A stretch of DNA of 64,000 nucleotides, taken from NCBI GenBank assembly GCA_020832345.1, contig JAFIEY010000064.1, forward strand, positions 1 to 64,000, in the 5' to 3' direction. The translations under genes and the position numbers were made by a program. The stretch is from Cryomorphaceae bacterium. Its GTDB lineage: Bacteria; Bacteroidota; Bacteroidia; Flavobacteriales; Schleiferiaceae. The notes under the pieces were generated by a model that was given only the letters and a program-made list of their open reading frames with translations, ran no database searches and had not been told where the DNA came from. Numbering within the stretch: position 1 is the first letter of the stretch; every line of letters starts with the position of its first letter. Below, one piece after another: positions 1 to 57,220 of this stretch.

Positions 1-352
1 CATTGCACAAAAAATCACGGTCTCACGAAACCCCAACGAGTACCGAAAATAGTTCGGTCTCAAAACGACTAAACGACTAAACCTTAACCCCATTGCACAA
101 AAACTCCCGGCCTTACGAAACCTCCACGAATACCGAAAATCGTTCGGTCTAAAAACGACTAAACACCTAAACGACTCAACGCCTACACCTTAACCCCATT
201 GCACAAAAACTCCCGGCCTTACGAATCCTCCACGAATACCGAAAATCGTTCGGTCTAAAAACGACTCAACGCCTAAACATTCAACCCCATTACCAATAAA
301 CGCTCGGTATCTCGAAACTTCCACGAATACCGAAAATAGTTCGTTGCCCAAA
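1..352. repeat. Tandem array of 90-106 bp hairpin repeats
   Basis: Three full units start at 1, 91 and 197 with cattgcacaaaaa, and a fourth degenerate unit starts at 288. Unit lengths are 90, 106 and 91 bases. Each unit holds ACCGAA-(5 nt)-TTCGGT, which can form a 6-bp hairpin (42-58, 132-148, 238-254; decayed at 329-345). This is followed by a variable number of acgactaaac-like decamers and ends in aacccc. No coding potential is seen. The array ends right at the rel stop codon, so rel transcripts run into it. It has no T-run that would make it a classical terminator. It may continue beyond the left edge. Confidence 0.85.
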
Positions 353-2723: not shown

Positions 2724-2809
2724 TGAGTCCAATTCAAAAAGAATGATTACAATCAAAATCTACCGACAAGGAAGATTTTGGCAGAAAAGGACTTTTTGGG
2801 GCAGCCGCA
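2724..2809 (+). mobile_element. Decayed, internally deleted copy of family-1 MITE-like element
   Basis: This keeps the left terminal repeat (TGAGTCC, then TCAAAAAGAATGATTACAAT) and the right half (taccgacaaggaagatttt through ggactttttgg). The middle is lost and the final GACTCA is degraded. It matches the copies at 6447, 49201, 52010 and 57077. It lies in the gap between DUF2452 and rel; I see no clear target duplication. Confidence 0.7.
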
Positions 2810-6446: not shown

Positions 6447-6583
6447 TGAGTCTGCTCAAAAAAGTCCCTTTCTGCCAAAATCTTCCTTGTCGGTAGATTT
6501 TTGAATCCTCACTAACAGATGGTTAGCTCCGGTTCAATAATCATCTCGATTTTGATTGAAATCATCCTTTTTGGAGTGGACTC
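6447..6583 (-). mobile_element. Family-1 MITE-like element, 137 bp, complete
   Basis: The ends are TGAGTCTGCTC... and ...GAGTGGACTCA, imperfect inverted repeats of about 18 bp. A direct AAAT flanks each side (6443-6446 and 6584-6587). Relative to the 49201 and 57077 copies it is inverted and nearly collinear over its whole length. It holds no open frame of significance. It lies in the gap between the acetyltransferase stop codon and the small secreted protein. Confidence 0.85.
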
Positions 6584-6600
6584 AAAATTACGAATTTTTA

Positions 6601-18790: not shown

Positions 18791-18816
18791 AAGGAGCCCG
18801 AAGGCTCCTTTTTTTA
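18791..18816 (-). terminator. Intrinsic terminator of giant cargo gene 1
   Basis: AAGGAGCC-CGAA-GGCTCCTT (18791-18810) is a perfect 8-bp stem with a tetraloop and A/T runs on both sides. On the minus strand it follows the stop codon at 18814 at once. It also separates this gene from guaB. Confidence 0.9.
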
Positions 18817-21800
18817 TTTTATTAACGTGAATGTACCTCGCAATTCCTGCGGCAAATCACCCACTGACTGGTATCTAATCAGATAAGTGTAAACGCCGGT
18901 GGGTGCAAGTTTGCCCCCTACATAACCATCCCAGCCTTCGTTGGGGTCTTTGGCTTCGTAAACCACTTTACCCCAGCGATCGATGACAATCATTTCAAAG
19001 TTTGACATATCGACATAGCGATTCATCACACCAAATCGTCTATTGGCTTCAATTGGAGATAGTGGATTGAAAGCATTGGGCAATACCAACTTTGCCTTTT
19101 GGGTCACACACCTGCGGTTTGACCGGCTACGGAATGGTCCATATCCATCAGGTATCGGAAGCGGATTATTGATTTCAACCGCACGGACATAATAGCACAG
19201 GGTTGATTTATCGGAAGCTACGTTCCCAATTCGATCCACAAAAATGGTATCGTTGGGTCCTAAATTATCCGTCAGCAAACTAAAGCTTTCTTCTGGGCCT
19301 TCAGATCGGTAAACCTCATAACGAACTAATTCCCCCACGAAACCTTTATAGCTATTCCAGCTTACCCAATTTTGTTCATTGGACTTGGCTTCTACTTCCA
19401 CCAATATATTGTTTACGATATTGGAAGTTGTATCCACTCCACCACAACTATCAGAAGCGGTCAATCTATAATAATACACTCCATCATTTGGCTGAGCCAA
19501 ATAATCAATGTATGTAAAGGTATAAGGTGCCGTTCTTGGAGCTTGAATGGTTGTCATTTCAAAATAAGTACCATTGCGTTTTGTAGCGCGTTCGATAATT
19601 ATTTGATCGGCATCCGCATTTCCATCCACAAATCCTCGGAAGAAAATTCCATCTCCTCTTACATCCGTTTCAGAGAGATAAAGAATTTCGGATGGAGATG
19701 GCACACCTGGGAACATACATTTGGGGCAGGAAACGGATTCACGAACACTATCCATGTGGATTGCAACTGCTTTATAACAGTAACTTGCACCAGCAACAAA
19801 GTCTGTTTGTACGAAAACCGTATCATTTGGTCCACCGACAAAAAGCACCTCATCTAAGAGAACGGTACCCATTTGGTCATCGATGTCAGCTCGCAATTCA
19901 TACCCAATGATACTATTGCCCCAGCCCGGTCGATAACGATTCCATGTTAACGTATTTGTTCCACCACAAACATCCACATCACTATTCAGTAATAAAGTAT
20001 TGTGGGGAATAACTAAATCAATGTCACTAACATTATCACAACTATCAGCAGAAACAACTTTAAACCTTTCAATTCGTGAATCTGCCATAGAGTTTTGCCA
20101 GATATAAGGGGCCATTCCACCCACCGTATCGATAATTTCCCAATCGTTAATGGTTTCGTTGAAATAGAGAACGTAATAATGAACGATATCACCGGTATTC
20201 GAGGCTTGAAAATCAATCACAGCTTTACCGTCGTTATTTACGGTAACTACATTAATCACAATGGTGTCGTCATTGGTTACATCTGAAAACAAATCACCAT
20301 CAATATTGGAGTAACTATAGCAACTAAAAGAGGAATCTGCATTTACAGATCGGTATCTTACCCTAAAGTTTATATCTAATGAGCAGATTGGAACACCTTC
20401 TACCCAATCGCGAAGGGTTGATGCGCCTATTACCATCCAGTTATCCGAACCTGCCGGAATTTCAGCCTGTACCTCGTAGGTAATGGTTGTTGTATCTGCC
20501 GGTCGGGGGTCGTTCCATTTTAAGTCGGCTGTATCCTTATCAGGCGTGTTTAATGGAAAAGAGGTTAAATCAAGATCAATTGTTCCTACCACATTTGAAC
20601 CGGAGGTCAGGAAGTCACAATCCACATTTGTTCTAACTTTAAAAAAGGAAGGATGTGGAAAAGTATCTGCTATAGACCAAGTTCCCGGATTATAGTCTCC
20701 AATGGAATCAATTTTGAAAAAATTACCAACACCTACCGTATCAACCTCAATGATGTGGTAATTAAATTTAAATCCTGTATCAGCATTTGGTAAAAAGTCT
20801 ATATCGATAAATCCATTTCCATTTCGTGAAACACAAAATAGCTCTGGATTAGAACCTGTACCCGCTTGCACATCAACAATTACAGTAATTAAGGATCGTG
20901 CATTTGCAGGACAGAAGTTATCTTCCATTTTAAGGTAATATACATATTCGTTGGAGAAAACTCCACATCCAGTTTCTGACGCTAAATGCTGGCAATCAGT
21001 TTCCCAGAAAAATTCAATGGTATTGTTTAATGTAGCCACATATCCTGACTGTCCGGTTGCCGGATTAATAAGGGCACATGGCGCGTTTAGGCAGTCATTT
21101 GTATCTGTCCAATTTGATCCACCCAATTGTCCACTGGCCGCCATAAAGGTAATGGTTTGAAATTGGCTATTTGGCAACAAATCAAAATCCTGAGCGTTTA
21201 GGGTAAATCTAACGGTATCTTTTGCCATAACGGTAAAGCGGAAGGTATTTACTGCCGGAGTGGTCATGGTAAGTGTGGTATCCGGAATAAAGGTAACAGA
21301 AGGTGGGTTATTTACTGGAACGGGCATAGGCGGATTGGCTCCGGTATATGCCACGGCACAATTAATTGTTACAATTTGAATGTCCCTGTATATTGCAGCA
21401 ACGGGAATACCGCATTTATAGGCAGTAACTTCGGTATTGGTTAACCATTGACCATTGGTGTGGGATTCAAAACTCACCAAACCGGAAACGGGATCCATAA
21501 CGGCGCCAACATTAGGTGGTGTGGTAGGTAGTGGGTTATTAAAGGTATAAGAACCAGTCCAATTCACACCTGTCGTTGGATTTACCAATGGCACACCCCA
21601 ATCATATACAATGGAATCTAGTTCCACGTCAAAAGCCAGAGGGCCATACAAAAATTGATAGCCAATACATGAAACTACGTTTGGCTGCTCCAAAAATTTA
21701 GGAGAATTATCGTAACAGGGAAAATTATTCTTAAATGGTGGGAAAGCTCCGTGGGTTCTTGGGTTGGCCACATCCGGATAGGGATAAAGCTCGGCTTTTA

Positions 21801-22359
21801 GGTACATTGAGCCACCGCCTGAATTAGAGGAACTATTCCGAAATCCCCCTCCAAACTGCATACCAACCACCCATGCGCCATTAAGCGCAGGCGCGCCATT
21901 GAGTTGCATGGCATTTGAACGATAAATGAATTCCGCAACCGCTCCATTGGGCGCTTGGCTTCCCCCTGTAGGTCCAGACCAATTGTTTTGTGTAGTAATA
22001 GGAACTCCACAATTCCATGTAAGGCCTGGTGAAAAACAGGATGGGGACACATCTAATTGTGACACCAATATACTTGGCGAAGAATTTGGGCCACCACCGG
22101 CATACCCGGCAATTACAAAGTTTGGTTGGGCACTATTAAAAATTGAAATAGCACCCGTGCAATCTCCATAGAGTTTTGCCACAAATACAAACTTTCCGTG
22201 ATCGCCCACGGTAAAGTTTGAGTTGAGTTCGGCATTTATTGCCAGGCGATTGTCCTGAGAGATGCAATACCAGATGATTTCACCTCCACGCATGTGGGAA
22301 GCGGAAAGTTCTAATATTGACGCTATGGCCAACAATAGAAAAAGGATACGTGTGCGCAT
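18814..22359 (-). CDS. Giant secreted protein, T9SS gliding-type C-terminal domain (paralogue 1)
   Basis: The protein has 1,181 residues from MRTRILFLLLAIASILELSA, a Sec signal peptide. The frame opens 8 codons earlier, but that start would spoil the signal. The mature N-terminus SHMRGGEIIWYCISQDNRL belongs to the SHxxGGE surface-protein family. Several beta-sandwich, fibronectin-III-like segments fill the middle (about 400-1080; DKDTADLKWNDPRP, ETDVRGDGIFFRGF). The last 85 residues (LVLPNAFNPLSP, IDRWGKVVYEAKDP, APTGVYTYLIRYQ) are the CHU/gliding-motility C-terminal domain used for T9SS export and surface anchoring. It is the most diverged of three tandem copies, with its own promoter element and terminator. 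Confidence 0.9.
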   Translation of the reverse strand: MRTRILFLLLAIASILELSASHMRGGEIIWYCISQDNRLAINAELNSNFTVGDHGKFVFVAKLYGDCTGAISIFNSAQPNFVIAGYAGGGPNSSPSILVSQLDVSPSCFSPGLTWNCGVPITTQNNWSGPTGGSQAPNGAVAEFIYRSNAMQLNGAPALNGAWVVGMQFGGGFRNSSSNSGGGSMYLKAELYPYPDVANPRTHGAFPPFKNNFPCYDNSPKFLEQPNVVSCIGYQFLYGPLAFDVELDSIVYDWGVPLVNPTTGVNWTGSYTFNNPLPTTPPNVGAVMDPVSGLVSFESHTNGQWLTNTEVTAYKCGIPVAAIYRDIQIVTINCAVAYTGANPPMPVPVNNPPSVTFIPDTTLTMTTPAVNTFRFTVMAKDTVRFTLNAQDFDLLPNSQFQTITFMAASGQLGGSNWTDTNDCLNAPCALINPATGQSGYVATLNNTIEFFWETDCQHLASETGCGVFSNEYVYYLKMEDNFCPANARSLITVIVDVQAGTGSNPELFCVSRNGNGFIDIDFLPNADTGFKFNYHIIEVDTVGVGNFFKIDSIGDYNPGTWSIADTFPHPSFFKVRTNVDCDFLTSGSNVVGTIDLDLTSFPLNTPDKDTADLKWNDPRPADTTTITYEVQAEIPAGSDNWMVIGASTLRDWVEGVPICSLDINFRVRYRSVNADSSFSCYSYSNIDGDLFSDVTNDDTIVINVVTVNNDGKAVIDFQASNTGDIVHYYVLYFNETINDWEIIDTVGGMAPYIWQNSMADSRIERFKVVSADSCDNVSDIDLVIPHNTLLLNSDVDVCGGTNTLTWNRYRPGWGNSIIGYELRADIDDQMGTVLLDEVLFVGGPNDTVFVQTDFVAGASYCYKAVAIHMDSVRESVSCPKCMFPGVPSPSEILYLSETDVRGDGIFFRGFVDGNADADQIIIERATKRNGTYFEMTTIQAPRTAPYTFTYIDYLAQPNDGVYYYRLTASDSCGGVDTTSNIVNNILVEVEAKSNEQNWVSWNSYKGFVGELVRYEVYRSEGPEESFSLLTDNLGPNDTIFVDRIGNVASDKSTLCYYVRAVEINNPLPIPDGYGPFRSRSNRRCVTQKAKLVLPNAFNPLSPIEANRRFGVMNRYVDMSNFEMIVIDRWGKVVYEAKDPNEGWDGYVGGKLAPTGVYTYLIRYQSVGDLPQELRGTFTLIK

Positions 22360-22456
22360 AATGATTAAGGTTTTGAGATACACTTTTTAGGTCTCTTTAA
22401 ATTCTGACCAAAGAAACAATAAAAATTAATCACTTCTAAACTAAAAATTGTTAAAG

Positions 22457-22488
22457 GCAAAAGTAACTTATTTAAAGATAACTTTTGC
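22457..22488 (-). promoter_or_regulatory. Promoter element with overlapping dyad, upstream of paralogue 1
   Basis: On the minus strand TACTTTTG (22465-22458) matches TAnnTTTG. It is one arm of an inverted repeat, GCAAAAGT...ACTTTTGC (22457-22464 and 22481-22488). The dyad could be an operator. The leader to the ATG would be about 95 bases. Confidence 0.45.
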
Positions 22489-22498
22489 TATGTAAACA

Positions 22499-22530
22499 AA
22501 AAAAGGAGGCAAAATTGCCTCCTTTTTTTT
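22499..22530 (-). terminator. Intrinsic terminator of giant cargo gene 2
   Basis: AAGGAGGCAA-AA-TTGCCTCCTT, a 10-bp perfect stem, is flanked by A and T runs. It lies 17-48 bases past the stop codon at 22547 on the minus strand. Confidence 0.9.
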
Positions 22531-22546
22531 CAAATCTCAGTATTTC

Positions 22547-25500
22547 CTATTGGATCAGGGTAAATGTGCCCCGTAGTTCTTCCGGCAAAGCACCCTCGGT
22601 TTGGTAGCGGATCAAATAGGTATAAACGCCTGTGGGTGCAATACTTCCATCCACATATCCATTCCATTCTACATCGGGGTCCTTGGTTTCAAATACCACT
22701 TTTCCCCAGCGGTCAATAATTATCATTTCAAAATTATTGATGTCCACAAAGCGATTTTTGGCGCCAAAGGTGCGGTTTGCTTCAATTGTCGAAAGTGGCT
22801 TAAAGGCATTGGGGAGCACCAATTTGGCTTTTTGCGTTACACAAGCGCGATTAGAACGGCTTCGGAAAGGACCATATCCATCGGGAAGGGGTAACGGATT
22901 ATTGGTTTCGATGGCGCGTACGTAATAGCAAAGTGTGGAAACATCCCCAGGCACATCCCCTATCCTATCAACAAAAACTGTGTCATTTGGTGATACATCT
23001 TCGGCTATTAAACGATAACTGCCTTCTTCTCCTTCTGCGCGATAAACTTCGTAACGGTCTAATTCTCCGGCAAAGCCTTTATAGCTATTCCAAGTAATCC
23101 AGTTTTGCTCATTGGGTTTGGCTTCGACTTCAACATGAATATTGTTTACCGTATTTGAAATGGTATCAATACCGTCACAACTATCAGCAGCTAAAATTCG
23201 GTAATAATACACACCATCCTGAGGCTTGGCCAAATAGTCGATATAGGTAAATGTATAAGGTGCAGTTTGAGGTGCCTGAATTTTTGCAACTTCAAAGAAG
23301 GTGCCGTTGGGTTGAGTTGCTCTTTCAATTACAATGATATTGGCGTCTGCCTCTCCATCGGTAAAGCCCCTGAAGAAAATCCCGTCTCCGCGTACATCCG
23401 TCTCTGATAAGTACAACAGCTGTGTCGGCTGTGGTACCCCGGGATTCATGCATTTCGGGTATGAAAAAGATTCTCTGACACTGTCCATGTGAATGGCCAC
23501 CACCCGATAGCAATATTCCGCTCCGAAAACAAACTCATCCTGAACATAGGAAGTGTCGTCAGGGCCTCCGGAAAATAACACCACATCGGTTGTCATACCC
23601 AAATTAGGATCATCTATATCAGCTCGCAATTCATAACCTATCAAACTATTTCCCCAGCCTTCTTCATATTTATTCCAAGTCAGGGTATTGGTTCCGGCAC
23701 AAATATCAACATCAGAGTTTAACAATAAGGTATTGTGAGGAATTACCAATTGATCGTCACTGATATTACCACAACTATCTACGGAGAGCACCTTGAACTT
23801 TTCGGGGCGTGTATCAGCCTCGGAGTTTTGCCACTCATAAGCGGCCATTCCGCCGACGGTATCAATGATGTCCCAAGAATTGGTCATTTCGTTGAAGTAC
23901 AAAATATAGTAATGGACAATGTCTCCTGTATTGGAAGGTTGGAAATCAATAACAGCATTTCCATCTTCATTTACGGTGACAAAATTTATTCGCATGGTAT
24001 CGTCATTGGTAACATCTGAGAAATTTTCGCCAATCATATTTGAATAACTAAAACAAGTGAGCGTTGAATCCTGATTGACCATCTGGAAACGAACTCTAAA
24101 ATTCACATCCATATCACAAACTGAAACAGCTTCAATCCACTCCCGTTCAGTAAGGCTTCCCATAAAAACCCAATTATCGGAACCAGCGGGAATTTCTGCT
24201 TCAATCTCATAAGTCACCGGTACAGAATCATTGGGACGTGGGTCATTCCATTTTAAGTCCGCTGTATCCTTATCCGGAGAGACTTGCGGCAAGGCAGATA
24301 AATCCAAATCAATCGTTCCAGAAATTAAAGATGATGGTGTTACAAAGTTGCATCCAACGTTCATATTGATTCTGAAATAACTGGGGTGTGGAATGGTATC
24401 AGGAATAGTCCAAGTACCGGGATCATAATCGTAAACGGTATCTATTGGAAAGAAGTTTCCTGTTCCCAATGTATCTATTTCCAATATATGAAAATTAAAT
24501 CTAAAGCCGGTATCCGCACCAGGAATAAACGATAAGTCAACGCTTCCGACTCCGTCACGAGAGGCGCAATACAAATCTACAGGCGTAGAGGATGCTCCCG
24601 CTTGTACATCTACGATAACAGTCACCAAAGACCGTGAAGGGGTAGGACAAAAATTATCTTCCATTTTTAAGTAAAATACGTATTCATTTGAAAACACGCC
24701 GCACCCTACTTCAGAAGCCAAATGGTTGCAATCGGTTTCCCAAAAGAACTCCACAGTATTATTTAGCGTGGAAACATAACCGGTTTGGCCGGTTGCTGGA
24801 TTCAATAATGCACATGGTGGATTATTACAATTGAGGGTATCATCCCAATCAGGACCGCCCAATTGCCCACTTGCAGCTTGAAAGGTAATGGTTTGAAACT
24901 GGCTGTTTGGAAGCAGGTCAAAATCTTGAGCATTCAGAGTAAATGCCACGGTATCACCGGCTTCTACTGTAAAGCGAAATACATCAGGCGCCGGAGTTGT
25001 CATGGTAAGGGTTGAATCCGGAATAAAGGTAACCGATGGCGGGTTGTTAACCGGAGGGGTGATTGGTGGATTGGCCTGTGTGTAGGCAGCTCCACAATCC
25101 GCGGTAATAATTTGAATATCGCGGGAAATTAGTGCTACCGGCAATCCACATTTATAAGCAAGCACTTCTGTATTGGTTGTAAAAACACCTGCCACATGGG
25201 ATTCAAAGGTAATAAGACCGGAAACTGGATCCAAATTGGCGCCTACACTTGGCGCAGTAGAAGGCAGTGGGTTGGTCGCAGAATATCCGGCAGAAAAAGT
25301 TACAGCATTGTTGGGTGGGCCAACTAAGGGCACACCCCAATCATATACAATTGAATCCAATTCAACGTCAAATGCCAATGGCCCATAAGTAAATGGCTCC
25401 CCCATACAAGAAACTACGTTGGGTAATTCCAAAAATTCCGGTGAATTATCGTAGCAGGGATTCATACTTCTAAAAGGAGGGAGAGCACCATGGGTTCTGG

Positions 25501-26107
25501 GATTTGGCACATTGGGATAAGGATACATTTCAGATTTCAGGTAAAAGTTTCCACCATTTACATTAGTAGCATTGTTTCGACAACAATGTCCGGCACCGGC
25601 AGTTGTTTGCAGTCCAATAATCCATGCACCGTTTTGTGGAGGTGAACCATTGAGTTGAAAAGCATTTGAACGATAAACATGTTCTGAAACCGCTCCAACC
25701 CCATTAAGTGGACCGGAAGCACTATTGCTGGCAGTTGGGGGATTACATGTCCATCGCAAATCACTGGAATAACAATCCGGAGAAATATCTGTTGAAGCAA
25801 CTAAAATTACCGGTGAAGAATTGGGTCCTCCCCCACTATAACCTCCTATATTAAACTGCATTTGAGTCACAAAAGACGTAACAAAAATATTATTTAGTCC
25901 GCCGCAATCGCCGTAAAGTTTTGCAACAAAAACAAATTTCCCGTGATCGGCTACGGTGAAATTAGAATTGAGTTCAGCATTAATTTCCAATCTATTGTCC
26001 TGTGATATACAATACCAAAAGATTTCTCCACCCCGAACATGCGAGGCTTCGGCATTAAATATGATTAATAATGGTAGTAAAATTAGTAAACGCTTAAATG
26101 CTTTCAT
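22547..26107 (-). CDS. Giant secreted protein, T9SS gliding-type C-terminal domain (paralogue 2)
   Basis: The 1,186-residue protein has signal peptide MKAFKRLLILLPLLIIFNAE, then SHVRGGEIFWYCISQDNRLE. It has the same domain order as its neighbours: an SHxxGGE-type N-terminal region (20-350), a Cys-containing block with ETDCNHLASEVGCGVFSNEY (about 470), repeated fibronectin-like sandwiches, and the CHU C-terminal domain (LVLPNAFKPLST, IDRWGKVVFETKDP, APTGVYTYLIRYQ). It is nearly collinear with paralogue 3, with long identical stretches, which indicates a recent duplication. It is probably exported by T9SS to the cell surface as an adhesin or motility-related protein. The ligand is unknown. Confidence 0.9.
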   Translation of the reverse strand: MKAFKRLLILLPLLIIFNAEASHVRGGEIFWYCISQDNRLEINAELNSNFTVADHGKFVFVAKLYGDCGGLNNIFVTSFVTQMQFNIGGYSGGGPNSSPVILVASTDISPDCYSSDLRWTCNPPTASNSASGPLNGVGAVSEHVYRSNAFQLNGSPPQNGAWIIGLQTTAGAGHCCRNNATNVNGGNFYLKSEMYPYPNVPNPRTHGALPPFRSMNPCYDNSPEFLELPNVVSCMGEPFTYGPLAFDVELDSIVYDWGVPLVGPPNNAVTFSAGYSATNPLPSTAPSVGANLDPVSGLITFESHVAGVFTTNTEVLAYKCGLPVALISRDIQIITADCGAAYTQANPPITPPVNNPPSVTFIPDSTLTMTTPAPDVFRFTVEAGDTVAFTLNAQDFDLLPNSQFQTITFQAASGQLGGPDWDDTLNCNNPPCALLNPATGQTGYVSTLNNTVEFFWETDCNHLASEVGCGVFSNEYVFYLKMEDNFCPTPSRSLVTVIVDVQAGASSTPVDLYCASRDGVGSVDLSFIPGADTGFRFNFHILEIDTLGTGNFFPIDTVYDYDPGTWTIPDTIPHPSYFRINMNVGCNFVTPSSLISGTIDLDLSALPQVSPDKDTADLKWNDPRPNDSVPVTYEIEAEIPAGSDNWVFMGSLTEREWIEAVSVCDMDVNFRVRFQMVNQDSTLTCFSYSNMIGENFSDVTNDDTMRINFVTVNEDGNAVIDFQPSNTGDIVHYYILYFNEMTNSWDIIDTVGGMAAYEWQNSEADTRPEKFKVLSVDSCGNISDDQLVIPHNTLLLNSDVDICAGTNTLTWNKYEEGWGNSLIGYELRADIDDPNLGMTTDVVLFSGGPDDTSYVQDEFVFGAEYCYRVVAIHMDSVRESFSYPKCMNPGVPQPTQLLYLSETDVRGDGIFFRGFTDGEADANIIVIERATQPNGTFFEVAKIQAPQTAPYTFTYIDYLAKPQDGVYYYRILAADSCDGIDTISNTVNNIHVEVEAKPNEQNWITWNSYKGFAGELDRYEVYRAEGEEGSYRLIAEDVSPNDTVFVDRIGDVPGDVSTLCYYVRAIETNNPLPLPDGYGPFRSRSNRACVTQKAKLVLPNAFKPLSTIEANRTFGAKNRFVDINNFEMIIIDRWGKVVFETKDPDVEWNGYVDGSIAPTGVYTYLIRYQTEGALPEELRGTFTLIQ

Positions 26108-26157
26108 GGCGCAAGAATTTAGGTTAATGTTTACGATACTATATCGTTTACAGTGTT

Positions 26158-26165
26158 CAAATTTA
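26158..26165 (-). promoter_or_regulatory. -7 promoter element of paralogue 2
   Basis: The minus strand reads TAAATTTG, a full TAnnTTTG match, about 50 bases before the start codon at 26107. No good -33 box is seen. The same octamer lies upstream of paralogue 3. Confidence 0.45.
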
Positions 26166-26235
26166 AGACATTATACGTGCTAAAAATTCTCCAAATGAGT
26201 CAACCCCTTGTTTGATTTAGGCAACGGGGTAAAAA

Positions 26236-26258
26236 AAAAGAGACCCGAAGGCCTCTTT
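26236..26258 (-). terminator. Intrinsic terminator of giant cargo gene 3
   Basis: AAAGAGACC-CGAA-GGCCTCTTT forms a stem with one mismatch and a CGAA loop like that of gene 1, with A and T tracts at its edges. It lies 27-49 bases beyond the stop codon at 26285. Confidence 0.85.
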
Positions 26259-26284
26259 AGATTTTTTATAGTGAAAATGATCCG

Positions 26285-29200
26285 TTATTGTATCAGTGTG
26301 AAGGTGCCTCGAACCTCTTCGGGCAATGCACCCACCGATTGATAGCGAATGAGATAGCTATATACACCTGTTGGTGCCAGAGAACCTCCAATATATCCAT
26401 CCCATTCTATATTTGGATCTTTGGTTTCAAACACAACCTTGCCCCAGCGATCTATAATAATCATCTCAAAGTTGTTTACATCGGCAAAGCGATTCTTGGC
26501 ACCGAAGGTTCGGTTTGCCTCAATCGGTGATAGTGGTTTAAAGGCATTTGGAAGAACCAACTTGACTTTTTGCGTAACGCATGCTCGATTTGAACGACTG
26601 CGGAATGGACCGTAACCATCAGGAAGGAGTTGTGGATTATTGGTCTCAACGGCGCGGACATAATAACAAAGTGTCGAAACATCCTTAGCAACATTACCTA
26701 TTCGATCAACATAAACCGTGTCATTTGGCGATACATTTTCTGCTATTAGGCTAAAACTTCCATCTTCGCCTTCAGCACGATACACTTCATATCGATCCAA
26801 ATCCCCGGCAAAACCTTTGTAACTATTCCAGGTAACCCAATTCTGCTCATTGCGTTTGGCCTCTACTTCCACCTTAATATTATTTACAATGTTGGAAATG
26901 GTGTCAACACCGTCACAACTGTCAGCAGCAATGATTCTGTAGTAATACACCCCATCATTGGGTTTTGCCAAGTAATCAATATAGGTAAAGGTATAGGGCG
27001 CTGTTTGCGGCGCTTGAATTCTTGCTAACTCAAAATATGTTCCGTTCCGCTGTGTCGCCCTTTCTACAATAATGGTATTGGCATCTGCATCACCATCGGT
27101 AAAGCCACGGAAGAAAACACCATCGCCACGGACATCAGTCTCCGACAAATACAATAACTCGGTTGGCTGTGGTACACCGGGATTCATACATATTGGGTAA
27201 GAAGAAGACTCCCTTACACTGTCGAGGTGGATAGCAACTACTCGATAACAATATATCGCACCGGATATAAATTCTTCCTGAATAAATGATGTATCATTCG
27301 GGCCTCCGGTAAACAAAACTACATCGGGCATCATACCCACATTGGGATCATCTATATCTGCACGCAATTCATATCCAACCAGGCTATTACCCCAACCCTG
27401 CGCATATCTATTCCAAGTGAGGGTATTGATTCCTTCACAAACATCTACCTCTGAGTTTAGCACCAAAGTATTATGGGGAATCACCAATTGATCGTCGCTA
27501 ATGTTTCCACAACTATCTACGGAAAGTATTTTAAATTTCTCGGGGCGGGTATCGGCTTGAGAGTTTTGCCATACATAGGCAGCCATACCACCAACCGTAT
27601 CGATAATGTCCCATGAGCTTGTCATTTCGTTAAAGTACAGAATATAATAGTGGACAATATCTCCGGTGTTGGAAGGTTGAAAATCAATAACAGCAAGTCC
27701 ATCTTCATTTACGGTGACATAATTAATACGCATGGTATCATCATTAGTGACATCTGAAAATTGAGCTCCAGTCATATTGGAATAACTGTAACAGGACAAT
27801 GTCGAATCTTGATTGACCATTGCGAAGCGAACCCTAAAGTTAACATTCATATCACAAACAGAAACGGCTTCAATCCATTCCCGATCAGTTAGACTACCCA
27901 AAAACACCCAATTATCTGATCCCGCCGGAATTTCTGCTTCTATCTCATAAGTCACTGGCACGGAATCATTGGGTCTCGGATTATTCCATTTCAAATCTGC
28001 TGTATCTTTATCCGGCGAAACCAGTGGTAATGGAGTTAAGTCCAAAGCCATTGTTCCGGCAATAAGTGAAGGAGGTGTTGTAAATTCACATCCAACATTC
28101 ATACGGATTCTAAAGTAGCTTGGATGGGGAATGGTATCGGGAAGAGACCAGGTAACCGGATCATAATCATAAATGGTATCAATGGCAAAAAAGTTCCCTG
28201 CCCCAACCGTGTCAATTTCCACGATGTGAAAATTAAACCTAAAACCGGTATCCACACCGGGAATAAATGAAAGATCAACACTACCCATTCCGTCGCGAGA
28301 GGCACAATACAAATCAACCGGGGTTGAAGACGCACCTGCTTGAACATCTACCACGACCGTTACAAGAGAACGAGAAGGTGTAGGACAAAAGTTGTCTTCC
28401 ATCTTCAGATAAAAAACGTATTCATTGGAAAACACGCCGCAACCAACTTCAGAAGCCAAGTGATTACAATCCGTTACCCAAAAGAATTCAACCGTATTAT
28501 TGAGTGAAGCTACATATCCAGTTTGACCTGTTGCTGGATTCAGTAATGCACAAGGGGGGTTGTTACAATTATTGGTATCTGTCCAGTTTGAACCACCCAA
28601 CTGACCACTGGCGGCTTCAAAGGTTATGGTCTGAAACTGGCTATTGGGCAGCAAGTCGAAATCCTGCGCATTTAGAGTAAAAGCGACTGTATCACCTGCT
28701 TCTACCGTAAAACGAAAAATATCCGGTGCAGGGGTTGTCATTGTTAATGTTGAATCCGGGATAAATGTAACTGAGGGTGGGTTGTTTACCGGTGGGGTAA
28801 TGGGCGGGTTAGCTTGAGTATAAGCAGCAGCACAATTGGCTGTAACAATCTGAATATCACGAGAAATTAGTGCTACTGGCAAGCCACATTTATAGGCCAA
28901 AACCTCTGTATTTGTGGTATAAGTTCCCGCTGCGTGAGATTCAAAAGTTATTAACCCAGTTACCGGATCTAAATTAGCTGCAACACTTGGGGCGGTGGAA
29001 GGCATAGGGTTGGTGGCAGAAAAGCCCGCAGAAAATGTTACGGAGTTATTTGGCGGACTGATAAGTGGTGTTCCCCAATCGTAAACCAGAGAATCTAACT
29101 CAATGTCAAACGCTAAAGGCCCATAAGTGAAAGGTTCTCCTATACAAGAAACCACATTGGGTAATTCAAGAAATTCTGGTGAGTTATCATAACAGGGATT

Positions 29201-29845
29201 CATGCTTCTAAAAGGTGGTAAAGAACCGTGTGCTCTTGGGTTAGCAACGTTAGGATATGGATACATTTCCGACTTGAGGTAAAAGGTTGGTTGTCCATTC
29301 ACATTATTTGAACCATTTCTGCAACAATGCCCTGCACCAGCTGTTGTTTGAAGTCCTATGACCCATGCACCGTTCGTCGGTGGAGAACCATTGAGTTGGA
29401 AAGCATTGGATCGATACACGTGTTCAGAAACGGAACCCGCTCCATTTAATGGACCTTGGGCACTATTGCTATTGGTAGGTGGATTGCACGTCCAGCGCAA
29501 GGCACTAGAAAAACAATCCGGAGAAATATCTGTTGAAGAAACCAATATTACTGGAGAAGAGTTTGGTCCTCCACCACTGTATCCACCTATATTAAATTGC
29601 ATGGTGGTAACAAAGGAGTTTATAAAAATGTTATTTGCCCCGGTACAATCACCATAAAGCTTGGCCACAAATACAAATTTTCCGTGGTCGGCTACGGTGA
29701 AATTAGAATTAAACTCAGCATTAATTTCCAATCTATTATCTTGCGAAATACAATACCAAAAAACTTCACCACCCCGAACGTGAGAAGCTTCAGCAAGAAA
29801 GGTGAAACTCAATGCAACTAAAAGCGCTCCGATAATTTTTTTCAT
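26285..29845 (-). CDS. Giant secreted protein, T9SS gliding-type C-terminal domain (paralogue 3)
   Basis: The 1,186-residue protein has signal peptide MKKIIGALLVALSFTFLAEA and mature start SHVRGGEVFWYCISQDNRLE. Layout and Cys positions match paralogue 2 almost residue for residue: AGAGHCCRN near 165, TDCNHLASEVGCGVFSNEY near 470. The CHU-type domain closes the protein (LVLPNAFKPLSP, IDRWGKVVFETKDP, APTGVYSYLIRYQ). The signal peptides of the three copies differ far more than the mature N-termini, so the mature domain is under constraint. It is the promoter-distal member of the array as drawn and is transcribed towards paralogue 2. Confidence 0.9.
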   Translation of the reverse strand: MKKIIGALLVALSFTFLAEASHVRGGEVFWYCISQDNRLEINAEFNSNFTVADHGKFVFVAKLYGDCTGANNIFINSFVTTMQFNIGGYSGGGPNSSPVILVSSTDISPDCFSSALRWTCNPPTNSNSAQGPLNGAGSVSEHVYRSNAFQLNGSPPTNGAWVIGLQTTAGAGHCCRNGSNNVNGQPTFYLKSEMYPYPNVANPRAHGSLPPFRSMNPCYDNSPEFLELPNVVSCIGEPFTYGPLAFDIELDSLVYDWGTPLISPPNNSVTFSAGFSATNPMPSTAPSVAANLDPVTGLITFESHAAGTYTTNTEVLAYKCGLPVALISRDIQIVTANCAAAYTQANPPITPPVNNPPSVTFIPDSTLTMTTPAPDIFRFTVEAGDTVAFTLNAQDFDLLPNSQFQTITFEAASGQLGGSNWTDTNNCNNPPCALLNPATGQTGYVASLNNTVEFFWVTDCNHLASEVGCGVFSNEYVFYLKMEDNFCPTPSRSLVTVVVDVQAGASSTPVDLYCASRDGMGSVDLSFIPGVDTGFRFNFHIVEIDTVGAGNFFAIDTIYDYDPVTWSLPDTIPHPSYFRIRMNVGCEFTTPPSLIAGTMALDLTPLPLVSPDKDTADLKWNNPRPNDSVPVTYEIEAEIPAGSDNWVFLGSLTDREWIEAVSVCDMNVNFRVRFAMVNQDSTLSCYSYSNMTGAQFSDVTNDDTMRINYVTVNEDGLAVIDFQPSNTGDIVHYYILYFNEMTSSWDIIDTVGGMAAYVWQNSQADTRPEKFKILSVDSCGNISDDQLVIPHNTLVLNSEVDVCEGINTLTWNRYAQGWGNSLVGYELRADIDDPNVGMMPDVVLFTGGPNDTSFIQEEFISGAIYCYRVVAIHLDSVRESSSYPICMNPGVPQPTELLYLSETDVRGDGVFFRGFTDGDADANTIIVERATQRNGTYFELARIQAPQTAPYTFTYIDYLAKPNDGVYYYRIIAADSCDGVDTISNIVNNIKVEVEAKRNEQNWVTWNSYKGFAGDLDRYEVYRAEGEDGSFSLIAENVSPNDTVYVDRIGNVAKDVSTLCYYVRAVETNNPQLLPDGYGPFRSRSNRACVTQKVKLVLPNAFKPLSPIEANRTFGAKNRFADVNNFEMIIIDRWGKVVFETKDPNIEWDGYIGGSLAPTGVYSYLIRYQSVGALPEEVRGTFTLIQ

Positions 29846-47327: not shown

Positions 47328-49223
47328 ATGGAAGAGGAAAACAAAGACCTTCAGCCCCAAACTGAACAGGATTCCGGGACTGCAACTACGCAACAAGCGG
47401 ATAAGGATTCAGCAGAAACTGCACCTGAAGAAGCTGTGGAAAATGCTGATGCGCCCGAAGAACAACCAGCTAAGGTGAAAGTAGCAGATTCACTAACGGT
47501 TCGTCCTGCACCCGAGGAGCTTTATGCCAATATGAATGTAGAGGCATTGCTCAAGGAGGGTAAAAAACTTTTGGGTGAAGAAAATGTGTTTGCTGTAAAA
47601 GCGCAGTTGGAGTACATACGGGATGAAGTGAAAAAGCAACTGGATAAGGTGCTTAACGAGAAAAAGGAAGCCTTCATCAACGAGGGCGGAAATGAAATTG
47701 ATTTTGAGTACAACCAACCCGAGCGGGATACCCTTCGCGAAATTTACCGTGAATACCGTGCAAAGCGCAAGGCTCGACAAGAAGCCATTCAAAAAGAACA
47801 AGAAGCCAATCTCGATCGCAAAAAAGACATCATCGAAGAGATAAAGGCATTGGCGCAACGAGAAGAAAGTCTTGGAGAAACCTTTCCCGCCTTTCGCGCA
47901 CTTCAGGAAGCTTGGAAAAACACCGGACCAGTGCCAAAAAGCGAAATGAACGAGTTGTATCGCAATTACCACTTCTACGTAGAGGCCTTTTACGATTATG
48001 TGCAAATCAACCGGGAACTTCGCGATCTCGATTTCAAAAAGAATAAGGAAATCAAAGAAAAGCTCATCGAAAAGGCTGATAAGCTTTCAGAGGAAACCGA
48101 TGTCATAAACGCCATGCGCACCTTGCAAAAACTGCACAAACAATGGAAAGAGACCGGACCGGTAGAGCGCGAACTGCGAGAGGATTTATGGGAAAAATTT
48201 AGTGCGGCTACCAAAGTCATTCACGACAAACGCGATGCATTTGAGGAGGAGAGAAAACAGGAAGCAGAGGATCGCATCGCAGTAAAAGCCAAGATTTGTG
48301 AGTTGTTGGAGGATATTGATTTGGACAAAGTCAACTCCCATAAACTTTGGCAAAAAACCATGAAAACCCTGGATGAAGCCAATGCGAAGTACAAGGCTGC
48401 CGGTTATGCCAAACACCCCGACAATGATACCCTTTGGGAGCGTTTCCGCGAAGTTAACAGAAAATTTCACCGGGCGAAAAATGCTTTCTACAAGGAGATG
48501 AAGCAAGTCCACCAAGAAAACCTTGAAGCTAAGAAAGCCTTAATTGAAAAGGCGGAAGCCCTAAAGGATTCTGAGGATTTTAAAGAAACGGCCAATACCC
48601 TGAAAAAACTCCAAAGCGATTGGAGAAAAATTGGTCCCGTTGCCCGAAAGGACAGTGACAAAATTTGGCATCAATTCCGCAGTGCTTGTGACCACTTCTT
48701 TAATCGAATGAAAGACAGGCATAAGGAGCGGGAAGTAGCTTTGGAGGGCAATCTTGAAGAAAAGAAAAAACTATTGGAAGAACTTAAAACGCTCGAAAGT
48801 GCCGATAAGAATATGCTGATGGATTTACTCAAACGTTGGAAAGATGTTGGACCAGTTCCCGCATCTCAACGTGAAATTGAATTTGAGTGGAATAAGCTTG
48901 TTGATGTAAGTTTTGAAAAAATTGACATGAACAAGATGGAGTCTTCAGCAATTCGCTACCGGGCAAAGGTTGAAACCATGAAGCAGTCGGAGGGTATGGA
49001 TAAATTACAAAAGGAGCAACAATTTTTGCGACAGAAAATGGATGAAGCCCGCAGGGAATTATCGCAACTTGAAGAAAACATGGCCCGGGTAACCGGAAGT
49101 TCGGATAACCCATTCATGAAAGAAATAAAGAAGAACCTTCGCCATCGTGAAGAGCAAGTTGCACTGTTAAAAGTAAAACTGCAAATCGTAAAAGAAATGA
49201 TGAGTCCACTCCAAAAAGGATGA
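47328..49223 (+). CDS. DUF349 repeat protein
   Basis: The 631-residue, highly charged helical protein has an acidic, low-complexity N-terminus (1-60). At least five DUF349 repeats follow (about 130-560), each with the WK.GPVP...LW..F pattern: WKNTGPVPKSEMNELYRNYH, WKETGPVERELREDLWEKF, WRKIGPVARKDSDKIWHQF, WKDVGPVPASQREIEFEWN. A coiled coil ends the protein. No function is established for the family. The last residues, MSPLQKG, and the stop codon are encoded by the left terminal repeat of a family-1 element at 49201, so the native C-terminus has been altered. Confidence 0.88.
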   Translation: MEEENKDLQPQTEQDSGTATTQQADKDSAETAPEEAVENADAPEEQPAKVKVADSLTVRPAPEELYANMNVEALLKEGKKLLGEENVFAVKAQLEYIRDEVKKQLDKVLNEKKEAFINEGGNEIDFEYNQPERDTLREIYREYRAKRKARQEAIQKEQEANLDRKKDIIEEIKALAQREESLGETFPAFRALQEAWKNTGPVPKSEMNELYRNYHFYVEAFYDYVQINRELRDLDFKKNKEIKEKLIEKADKLSEETDVINAMRTLQKLHKQWKETGPVERELREDLWEKFSAATKVIHDKRDAFEEERKQEAEDRIAVKAKICELLEDIDLDKVNSHKLWQKTMKTLDEANAKYKAAGYAKHPDNDTLWERFREVNRKFHRAKNAFYKEMKQVHQENLEAKKALIEKAEALKDSEDFKETANTLKKLQSDWRKIGPVARKDSDKIWHQFRSACDHFFNRMKDRHKEREVALEGNLEEKKKLLEELKTLESADKNMLMDLLKRWKDVGPVPASQREIEFEWNKLVDVSFEKIDMNKMESSAIRYRAKVETMKQSEGMDKLQKEQQFLRQKMDEARRELSQLEENMARVTGSSDNPFMKEIKKNLRHREEQVALLKVKLQIVKEMMSPLQKG

Positions 49224-49338
49224 TTTCAATCAAAATCGAGGGGATTTTCGAACTGGAGCTAAATAACTGTTAGTGAGGATTCTAAAACCTACCGACAAGG
49301 AAGATTTTGACAGAAAGGGACTTTTTGGAGCAGACTCA
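49201..49338 (+). mobile_element. Family-1 MITE-like element, 138 bp, reference copy
   Basis: Terminal inverted repeats TGAGTCCACTCCAAAAAG and CTTTTTGGAGCAGACTCA match at 16 of 18 positions. ATGA is duplicated at both sides (49197-49200, 49339-49342). No transposase or useful frame is inside. The left end supplies the stop codon of the DUF349 gene. Confidence 0.88.
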
Positions 49339-51565: not shown

Positions 51566-52012
51566 ATGGCAAATACAACTGTAAAAAATCGTCGAGCCCG
51601 CTACGACTACGAATTTCTCGACACTTTTGTGGCCGGGCTGCAATTGTACGGCACAGAAATTAAGGCAATTCGAGAAGGTAAAGCTGCATTAAACGACAGT
51701 TATTGTTTGTTTCTCGGTGATGAACTTTTCATTCGCGGAATGTACATCGGAGAGTATTCCCACGGAAATATCAACAACCACGAAACCTACAGAGACCGAA
51801 AACTTTTGCTCCAAAGAAGGGAGTTGGAAAAGTTGACCACCAAAATGAAGAATGTGGGAAACACCATTGTTCCGGTGAAGCTTTTTATCAACGAGCGCGG
51901 TTTAGCCAAACTGGAAATTGCTTTGGCCAAAGGTAAAAAGACCTACGACAAACGCGATTCCATAAAGGAAAAAGATGTAAAAAGGGAAATGGATCGAAGG
52001 ACTAAATTTTGA
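51566..52012 (+). CDS. smpB: SsrA-binding protein SmpB
   Basis: The 148-residue full-length protein partners tmRNA in rescuing stalled ribosomes. Motifs are [35 protein letters not shown] and the basic C-terminal tail [20 protein letters not shown]. It diverges from pyrD. The stop codon TGA (52010-52012) consists of the first bases of a family-1 element. Removing the element and one ATTT copy restores TAA after the same last residue. Confidence 0.95.
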
Positions 52013-52077
52013 GACCACTCCAAAAAGATTGATTTCAATCAAAATCGACGAAGAGTGGACTTTTTGGGGCAAACTCA
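52010..52077 (+). mobile_element. Family-1 MITE-like element, internally deleted (68 bp), between convergent stop codons
   Basis: It has the terminal repeats TGAGACCACTCCAAAAAG and GACTTTTTGGGGCAAACTCA but lacks the central 70 bases. ATTT is duplicated at both ends (52006-52009, 52078-52081). It occupies the whole space between smpB and the convergent glycosyltransferase gene. Confidence 0.85.
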
Positions 52078-52080
52078 ATT

Positions 52081-53136
52081 TTAATTTTCCATTGTCGAAA
52101 AAAAACAAGCTGCATACGCATCACTAATCGATTGCCAATCCGGCACATCGTATTTCACCCTTTGGGGTTGTGCTTCTTTCATTGTGGATTCCAAATCGTT
52201 TTTATCCGCAAAATACCCCAGCGCATTTTCACCTATAACTGTTCGATTAAAAGGATTTTCATGGGCCACAATTGCGCAACCGGATGCCATAGCTTGAATT
52301 AAACTCGGATTGGTTCCACCTACACTATGACCGTGAAAATACAAGCTGCAATCTCGACGCAAACGCGCCGCCACGGATTTATCATACACCCCACCCAACC
52401 AAATTCGCATTTCACTTGGGGGGTACTTTTTTAATAGCTGACGACTATATGAATTTCGTGTATTACCACAAATGACCAAGGGGCGAATTCCGCCATTTGC
52501 ATGAGCTTCCAAAATGGTATGGACATGATTTTCAGGTTCCATACGGGCCATCAGTAAATCAAAGGATTTTACACCGGATAATTTAGATGGCAACTGCTTG
52601 GATGGTTCAATATGGGTGGCTCCATAGCCGATTATTGTAGGTTGAACCCCATAGGTCTTGTTTACATATTCCGCAATAACGGGATGATCTGCAATGCAAT
52701 GATCGCTTTTGGTTGCCGCAATTTTTTCTGCCCACCCCAAAAACCGCTGAACCAGTGGCGCATATTTGCTGCGTTTCCATTCCAGTCCATCCATATTGCT
52801 GATATGCTTTGCACCTTTTGGCCACAACCAATACCACAGCGTATTACTGGTATAACCGAGATGTAAGCATATATCAAAATTTTGCCGACGCGCATGTAAT
52901 AGACAAAACAAATCGTAAAAAAACTGTCCAAACGTACCCAGAAAAACTTCCGGATTAAAACGAGAAATTAGGGTTGCGCCTTTGTATTCTTTTTGGTGGT
53001 AGGAATGATTATGGGTTTGATATACCGTGACCAAATGTCCGTCTTGGGAGAGATGTTCAGCCAAGTGCTCGGCGAGTTCTTCAAACCCGCCATACTGATT
53101 GGGAATGCCCCGGGTGCCTAAAATTGCAATGCGCAT
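52081..53136 (-). CDS. Glycosyltransferase family 4 (DUF1972 type)
   Basis: The protein has 351 residues from MRIAILGTRGIPNQYGGFEE, the DUF1972/GT4 start with the GxxxxYGG donor loop. An in-frame start 7 codons upstream overlaps the neighbour and is less likely. The C-terminal Rossmann half has LLMARMEPENHVHTILEA, GGTNPSLIQAMASGCAIVAH and the usual E of retaining GT-B enzymes replaced by NPSLIQAM. It probably adds rhamnose or a related sugar to a surface polysaccharide. It lies 10 bases downstream of a second GT4 gene. Its stop codon abuts a MITE-like element. Confidence 0.85.
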   Translation of the reverse strand: MRIAILGTRGIPNQYGGFEELAEHLAEHLSQDGHLVTVYQTHNHSYHQKEYKGATLISRFNPEVFLGTFGQFFYDLFCLLHARRQNFDICLHLGYTSNTLWYWLWPKGAKHISNMDGLEWKRSKYAPLVQRFLGWAEKIAATKSDHCIADHPVIAEYVNKTYGVQPTIIGYGATHIEPSKQLPSKLSGVKSFDLLMARMEPENHVHTILEAHANGGIRPLVICGNTRNSYSRQLLKKYPPSEMRIWLGGVYDKSVAARLRRDCSLYFHGHSVGGTNPSLIQAMASGCAIVAHENPFNRTVIGENALGYFADKNDLESTMKEAQPQRVKYDVPDWQSISDAYAACFFSTMEN

Positions 53137-53146
53137 GATTCGATGG

Positions 53147-54229
53147 TTATTTTTCAAAATAGGCTTGGTAGTGTTTAGTCAATTCATCCACGTGACGGGT
53201 GATAGAAAACTGCGAAAAATATTCGATTTGACTTTTTGTAACATCTTGCAATAAAGCCTTTTCAATGGCAATTTCTATGCTTTCAATATTTTGGGGTTTG
53301 CAGTAAAACGCATAATCACCAAAAACGGAGCGCGTATCACCACCTTCTCCCACCACAATTGATTTTCCCATTACGGCACCCTCAAGAGCCGACAATCCTG
53401 TGGTTTCAAAAAAGCTAGGCAGTGCCACCACCTTGCATTTTCTCATCACTTCAATCATTTTCAGCTGAGGTTGATGCCCGTAAAAAACAACAGAATCACC
53501 GGCTACTTTTCGGCATTCCTTCTCATACGCAACATTTCGCACACTGGCCTTGCCAAAAATATGCAGTGGCCAACGGCGTTTGTTGCAAATTTTAATCAAC
53601 GGTAAAACCCCTTTTCTCGGTTCGATATACCCGGCGAAAAACACACCATTTCCCACTTCTTTATTAGTGCGAAAAAAATGCATGGCTACCCCCAACGGAT
53701 TTACGAAGTAATTAGGCGGAATCAGAAGTCCCTCCTGTCGCAGTCGATGTAGTTCATTTTCCGTAGAAGCAATAAGTCCGGAGCAGGCATTCAAAGCCAT
53801 TTGCATACTCCTCTTTTGTCCGAGAAATAAATATCGCCAACCGGGAAAAGGAATTTGCCCCTTAAAATATCTTCCGAAGGTTTTTATGTATTCCGCGCCG
53901 AATTTACCGAAAACCCGTGCAATAAATCGACGAATCAAGTTCGGTGAGGCCAAATCCATTATATGAAAATCCACCCAAATGGAAAATATAAAAACCGGAA
54001 TACCCCGATTTAGGGCGGGTAAGATTTCTGCCGGCCGGCCTAAGTTAAAGGCCTGTATAAGTTGGTATTGCGACCAATTGAGCACCTTTTCATGGGAAAC
54101 CACATCGACTAAAAAGCCGCGTTTGCGAAGTTCCGTGGCAGTAGAATTCACCTGCACCACATCCCCTCCGGGATTGTGATTGGCATCACTGCGCAATAAG
54201 AATAGTATTTTTGTACTTTTGTTCAACAA
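53147..54229 (-). CDS. Glycosyltransferase family 4
   Basis: The 360-residue GT-B protein has an N-terminal domain with NPGGDVVQVNSTATELRKRG, the nucleotide-sugar acceptor-side loop. The C-terminal donor-binding region has GVFFAGYIEPRKGVLPLIKI and VVALPSFFETTGLSALEGAV. The ET.GLSALEG motif carries the Glu that binds the donor in GT4. It likely acts in capsule, O-antigen or exopolysaccharide synthesis. It is the first of two adjacent GT4 genes and is divergent from the cupredoxin gene. No other sugar genes lie next to the pair. Confidence 0.85.
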   Translation of the reverse strand: MLNKSTKILFLLRSDANHNPGGDVVQVNSTATELRKRGFLVDVVSHEKVLNWSQYQLIQAFNLGRPAEILPALNRGIPVFIFSIWVDFHIMDLASPNLIRRFIARVFGKFGAEYIKTFGRYFKGQIPFPGWRYLFLGQKRSMQMALNACSGLIASTENELHRLRQEGLLIPPNYFVNPLGVAMHFFRTNKEVGNGVFFAGYIEPRKGVLPLIKICNKRRWPLHIFGKASVRNVAYEKECRKVAGDSVVFYGHQPQLKMIEVMRKCKVVALPSFFETTGLSALEGAVMGKSIVVGEGGDTRSVFGDYAFYCKPQNIESIEIAIEKALLQDVTKSQIEYFSQFSITRHVDELTKHYQAYFEK

Positions 54230-57076: not shown

Positions 57077-57220
57077 TGAGCCCACTCCAAAAAGGATGAT
57101 TTCAATCAAAATTGACGCGGAGGGGATTTTTGAGTCGGAGCTAACCAATTGTTAGTGAGCATTCAAAAATATACCAACAAGGAATATTTTGGCAGAAAGG
57201 GACTTTTTGGAGCAGACTTA
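57077..57220 (+). mobile_element. Family-1 MITE-like element, 144 bp
   Basis: Termini are TGAGCCCACTCCAAAAAG and CTTTTTGGAGCAGACTTA; the body is collinear with the 49201 copy. Flanking 4-mers are ACCA and AACA, a 3 of 4 match. It lies in the 442-base divergent gap between ychF and the NAD(P)-binding protein gene. The remainder of the gap holds only the -7 element at 57313. The short open frame inside it is not a gene. Confidence 0.85.

Follow-up and report, generated by a model that had tools for sequence, protein, structure and literature searches.

What allows a 68-bp element to lie exactly on the facing ends of two convergent genes, with both proteins ending as they presumably did before it arrived? 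The question is raised by a junction within a stretch of 64,000 nucleotides, analysed as a whole and hereafter called the window. There, smpB (148 amino acids, positions 51566-52012, plus strand; Pfam SmpB PF01668, E 1.6e-54) converges on a gene for a group 1 glycosyltransferase of 358 amino acids (52081-53157, minus strand; Pfam GT group 1 / DUF1972). A MITE-like element, TGAG...CTCA, occupies positions 52010-52077 of the plus strand as a shortened member of a 144-bp family, and two copies of ATTT border it (52006-52009 and, from the sequence reading, 52078-52081), in keeping with the 4-bp duplication that is the rule in this family. Its terminal inverted repeats, delimited by direct reading and by the family consensus ends, are TGAGACCACTCCAAAAAG on the left (52010-52027, plus strand) and TGAGTTTGCCCCAAAAAG on the right (52060-52077, minus strand), and they match at 13 of 18 positions. 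The 3' end of smpB reads ...AAA TTT TGA, the stop TGA (52010-52012) being bases 1-3 of the element. As for the glycosyltransferase, its stop TAA (52081-52083) lies outside the element and shares with the right ATTT only its first plus-strand base, the last T. The original prediction of a 68-bp element between ATTT flanks, whose initial TGA serves as the smpB stop, thus agrees with the coordinates 52006-52081.

Removal in silico of the element together with one ATTT gives GGACTAAATTTTAATTTTCC, where smpB ends in ...TKF-TAA and the glycosyltransferase in ...MEN-TAA, their stops overlapping in a four-base TTAA. The predicted empty junction was therefore reproduced, and so was the claim that both C-termini are the same before and after insertion, since the excision leaves both proteins as they are. 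The reconstructed target, CTAA-ATTT-TAAT, scores above 99.9% of the genome positions when evaluated with the family's own motif. SmpB stops within about 3 residues of the SmpB ends of relatives, and in some of these (KREMDRRMKY and KREHDRKLKF) the last residue falls at the same position; neither truncation nor read-through, which would have spoken against the proposal, is thus indicated.

The element belongs to a family which, counted by its ends in the 4.03-Mb genome, is represented by 358 left ends (≤3 mismatches) and 486 right ends (≤2 mismatches), or about 360-490 ends; reversed-pattern controls for both ends gave 0 matches. The terminal inverted repeats are 18 bp long, with the consensus ends TGAGTCCACTCCAAAAAG / TGAGTCTGCTCCAAAAAG, and these small, multicopy elements have no coding capacity. 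Among 295 paired copies found in a 2.0-Mb sample, the size classes are 57, 86, 127, 133, 138 and 144 bp, of which all but the 144-bp form look like internal deletions of that form. The smpB copy corresponds to the 144-bp consensus minus 76 bp, with 8 mismatches and with the deletion bounded by two direct repeats of the GGGGA/TTTTTG type; on C165, a copy of 67 bp has lost nearly the same segment. At position 12, the two ends co-vary (C/C in 139 copies, T/T in 96, mixed C/T in 45). Each main size class contains both the C/C and the T/T variant; this applies also to the 127- and 133-bp classes, which have one unusual internal deletion in common, and the distribution suggests a concerted change of the two ends. 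The inverted repeats, the duplication, the co-varying ends and the size classes are, in their anatomy, those of a MITE.

Four further copies are found in the window: one of the 86-bp class (2724-2809, plus strand), two of the 138-bp class (6447-6584, minus strand, duplication AAAT; 49201-49338, plus strand, duplication ATGA) and one of the 144-bp class with a degraded duplication, ACCA/AACA (57077-57220, plus strand). Rfam covariance models run against the window matched only a tRNA, and a pattern scan of IMG/VR gave one 18-mer match, which is about chance level. At the assembly level, many contigs start or end inside family elements (e.g. C59:1, C177:86, C79:85, C171:86 and C78:85), the family thus fragmenting the assembly.

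Concerning the target, a 4-bp duplication with at most one mismatch was found in 194 of 291 sampled copies, 152 of them exact. In a previous subset comprising 155 copies, exact matches numbered 88 at 4 bp and at most 10 at any other length. The target itself is symmetrical, TTAA-N4-TTAA, and at 151 exact-duplication sites the duplicated bases are preceded by A and followed by T in about 90% of the cases. Because TAA and TTAA are parts of this motif, the insertion offsets at stops follow it; the exact placement thus goes with the target motif, which TAA/TTAA stops match, and need not be stop-codon targeting as such.

The distribution of the copies relative to genes was analysed on the 2.0-Mb sample, about half of the genome being read base by base. 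All recognised copies were first taken out in silico, and a simple codon-usage gene caller was applied to the emptied sequence, giving 1503 genes (87% coding). For the control, positions were sampled with weights given by the target motif of the family. Since this motif was trained on mostly AT-rich intergenic insertion sites, the control leans towards intergenic positions and should be conservative. Insertions with an intact duplication lie inside called genes in 11% of the cases vs. 69% expected, and intergenic insertions lie between convergent genes in 31% vs. 10.5% expected (Fisher, 3e-11). Whether copies lie at convergent stops more often than expected had been suggested as a check, and they strongly do: convergent gaps of ≤20 bp hold 8 insertions vs. 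0.25 expected (O/E about 32), and a slightly wider search interval gave 9 matches among 64 tight convergent junctions. The O/E values for longer convergent gaps are 26 (21-100 bp), 17 (101-300 bp) and 2.2 (>300 bp), to be set beside 0.35 in tandem gaps of ≤20 bp and 0.13 inside coding sequence. Divergent gene pairs flank about one fifth of the copies. Excision in silico inside genes, examined for restoration of the reading frame, showed no peak at 4 bp; the cases were too few, because hardly any true intragenic copies exist.

At the scale of the stop codon, the exact C-terminus is kept at 68 of the 74 gene ends near intact insertions. Insertion behind the stop has an O/E of 7.7 (60 vs. 7.8) and placement of the element's TGA exactly over the stop one of 7.0 (6 vs. 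0.86), vs. 1.3 for insertions cutting the last codons (6 vs. 4.7). Replacing the stop is therefore about as well tolerated as landing behind the gene, and the idea that such a site is nearly cost-free, first proposed for smpB, holds as a general rule. The six exact replacements are located at L145:7030-7086, L167:3398-3454, L189:6106-6162, L041:14444-14500, L045:3983-4039 and window:52010-52077. The copy at C78:3398-3454 reproduces the smpB geometry exactly, with overlapping TTAA stops, the plus-strand stop turned into TGA and the minus-strand stop kept; at a third TTAA-type junction (C99), the other offset was taken and one protein was lengthened. All exact replacements involve short forms of 57 or 68 bp (6 of 39 short vs. 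0 of 147 long copies; Fisher 6e-5, post hoc), short forms being only a fifth of the intact copies.

The anatomy, the duplication, the motif, the genome-wide enrichment and the exact stop replacement in six copies are direct observations, and the reading that we favour, with a probability of about 0.85, is that of a selfish, non-autonomous, MITE-like element which was moved in trans, landed on a stop-like motif and was kept since nothing was broken, selection filtering the copies. A transposase acting in trans would have cut a 4-bp staggered target with a preference for TTAA-N4-TTAA, and the element would have entered CTAA-ATTT-TAAT at the smpB / glycosyltransferase junction, whose expected uninterrupted form is CTAAATTTTAATTTT and in which TAAT begins with the smpB TAA stop, overlapping the TAA of the facing gene. 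Owing to the 4-bp duplication, the last smpB codon would then have been preserved, and the element-initial TGA would have replaced the stop of smpB at an unchanged position; the glycosyltransferase would have retained its own. The smpB copy would have survived because nothing was broken, and the same filter, applied to hundreds of insertions, would leave copies downstream of genes and in tight convergent gaps, with nearly none in coding sequence. Purifying selection would thus be the probable cause of the positional bias.

Two observations are left unexplained by this simple account: the excess of copies immediately downstream of stops, and the restriction of exact stop replacement to short forms. 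Within convergent regions of >100 bp, positions ≤30 bp from a stop are 12.8-fold enriched vs. 3.7-fold for the middle, and in tandem gaps the figures are 4.9-fold behind stops vs. 1.6-fold before starts. The near-stop excess in these convergent regions is not predicted by plain damage avoidance, unless long gaps hide uncalled genes, nor can the motif-weighted control account for it. Both contrasts would be expected if insertion were actively directed towards the 3' ends of genes and towards convergent junctions, with transcription termination, supercoiling or a host factor for instance as the guide, selection having a lesser part. We nevertheless consider such steering unlikely: the gradient running from coding sequence through operon gaps, then divergent and tandem gaps, up to convergent gaps is the one that damage avoidance predicts. 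The gene caller was simple, moreover, and genes may have been missed in the middle of long gaps.

The location of the copies behind genes could also mean that they are kept as working stem-loops at mRNA 3' ends (termination, protection against exonucleases or insulation of facing genes), as proposed for REP elements. The consensus sequences do fold well (-22.0 kcal/mol for the 57-mer and -56.4 kcal/mol for the 144-mer), and of 200 shuffled versions of the 68-bp smpB copy, 198 fold less well than the copy itself. However, TTTT occurs within 10 nt in only 91 of 387 flanks, so these are not classic terminators; the copies between divergent genes fit poorly with such a role, and the conserved CA/CA mismatch in the stem, along with the target duplication, is what a transposase end predicts. 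A function at 3' ends thus appears rather improbable as the reason for their retention. Even more doubtful is the proposal that the short 57/68-bp form would be a module made of a stop codon plus a stem-loop, kept because it is helpful, or that its transposition would be steered to gene ends.

In none of the genomes of the genus that were searched does smpB adjoin this glycosyltransferase, and a protein scan of GTDB genomes, in which the best glycosyltransferase match has 49% identity, showed smpB as a neighbour at none of the best 80 loci. We infer the insertion event at the smpB junction, an empty allele not having been seen. That no insertion occurred, the ATTT flanks being coincidental and the stretch resulting for instance from recombination between copies that joined two flanks, might be argued from the same gene neighbours occurring in no genome searched, so that the junction could be a rearrangement, but it is highly improbable given that the 4-bp duplication is exact and falls on a high-scoring target motif, that both ends of the element are complete and that both proteins end normally.

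As mentioned above, the favoured reading of a MITE moved in trans calls for a transposase, which would have been supplied from elsewhere. In the approximately 2.0 Mb read base by base, no autonomous IS or transposase with the family ends was found, and whole-genome searches with five DDE or rve families (PF01609, PF13751, PF00665, PF13701 and PF13612) and with Y1_Tnp gave no match carrying them. The six PF01609 matches were rejected as partners since they lack family ends, the only exception being a MITE near C96; an rve-type partner was likewise discarded, the PF00665 match, the sole rve gene (C160), having other ends than the family. Pairs of terminal inverted repeats 0.2-6 kb apart with a matching duplication were also considered, two of the candidates being near 0.3 kb and the others 0.9-3.8 kb, and they contained either a MITE or ordinary genes. 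Contigs often end inside the elements, and a repeated IS could therefore be missing from the assembly. The family ends resemble IS3-type ends (TGA...TCA, AAAAGT). A DDE transposase gene is present on a short contig, C239, whose composition is unlike the rest and which is possibly a contamination.

Of four congeneric genomes, two yielded a handful of copies and the other two none at the threshold used. The source genome, with its hundreds of copies, measures 4.0 Mb, and these congeners 2.3-2.6 Mb. Given the few or absent copies in congeners, the expansion of the family is therefore recent in this lineage relative to the genus. Diverged copies, with CCGAAAAG at both ends, were found in a genome of another genus of the same taxonomic family.

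As a whole, the family shares with the bacterial MITEs described so far (NEMIS/Correia, RUP, Nezha, Chunjie, QMITE2, BrickBuilt and MITEAba12; PMC10969869, PMC6382973) a small size, a non-coding and intergenic nature, terminal inverted repeats, a target duplication, many copies and size variants arising by internal deletion. It differs from them by its own sequence and ends, by its hundreds of copies in one Bacteroidota-type genome, by a quantified bias towards tight convergent stops and by a mobilising IS that was not found. A location at gene ends has precedents: QMITE2 of Coxiella was reported mainly in 3' untranslated regions (PMC10969869), and GTAG-tagged REP elements are mostly downstream of genes, between convergent or unidirectional genes, where their termini often provide the stop codon of the flanking gene, TAG (PMC3733652). 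The present family is like the latter both in its gene-downstream and convergent location and in termini that supply stop codons. REPs, however, are palindromes of 20-40 bp tied to a tyrosine (Y1/RAYT) transposase, unlike the present elements with their 4-bp duplication and ends on both sides. Membership of the REP/RAYT system was rejected, the ends being TGAG, the length 57-144 bp and the duplication 4 bp; only one Y1_Tnp, a degraded one, is present in the genome. Finally, the G-rich heptamer repeats of Xanthomonas and Nostoc lie ≤50 bp from stop codons and sometimes overlap them (PMC4692102); these are simple-sequence repeats and not transposable elements, and their likeness to the family is one of location near stops. 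As far as our searches reach, novelty lies in the sequence family, in the number of copies that this lineage carries and in the tolerance map obtained by measurement, the kind of element and its behaviour being already known.

The family, whose target motif is known and of which about 200 insertions can be dated, amounts to a natural saturation-insertion experiment. In the resulting tolerance map, convergent gaps come out best, tandem and divergent gaps tolerate much less, and coding sequence and operon gaps hardly anything. Moreover, the terminal TGA lets the element land on a stop codon at a measurable rate while the protein remains unchanged.

Two other sets of repeats were observed in the window. 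Positions 18814-29790 hold three units of about 3.7 kb in tandem, which share about 70-78% of their sequence and are probably large repeated protein genes, and four head-to-tail 91-bp repeats, 63-84% alike, lie at the very start of the window (1-378).
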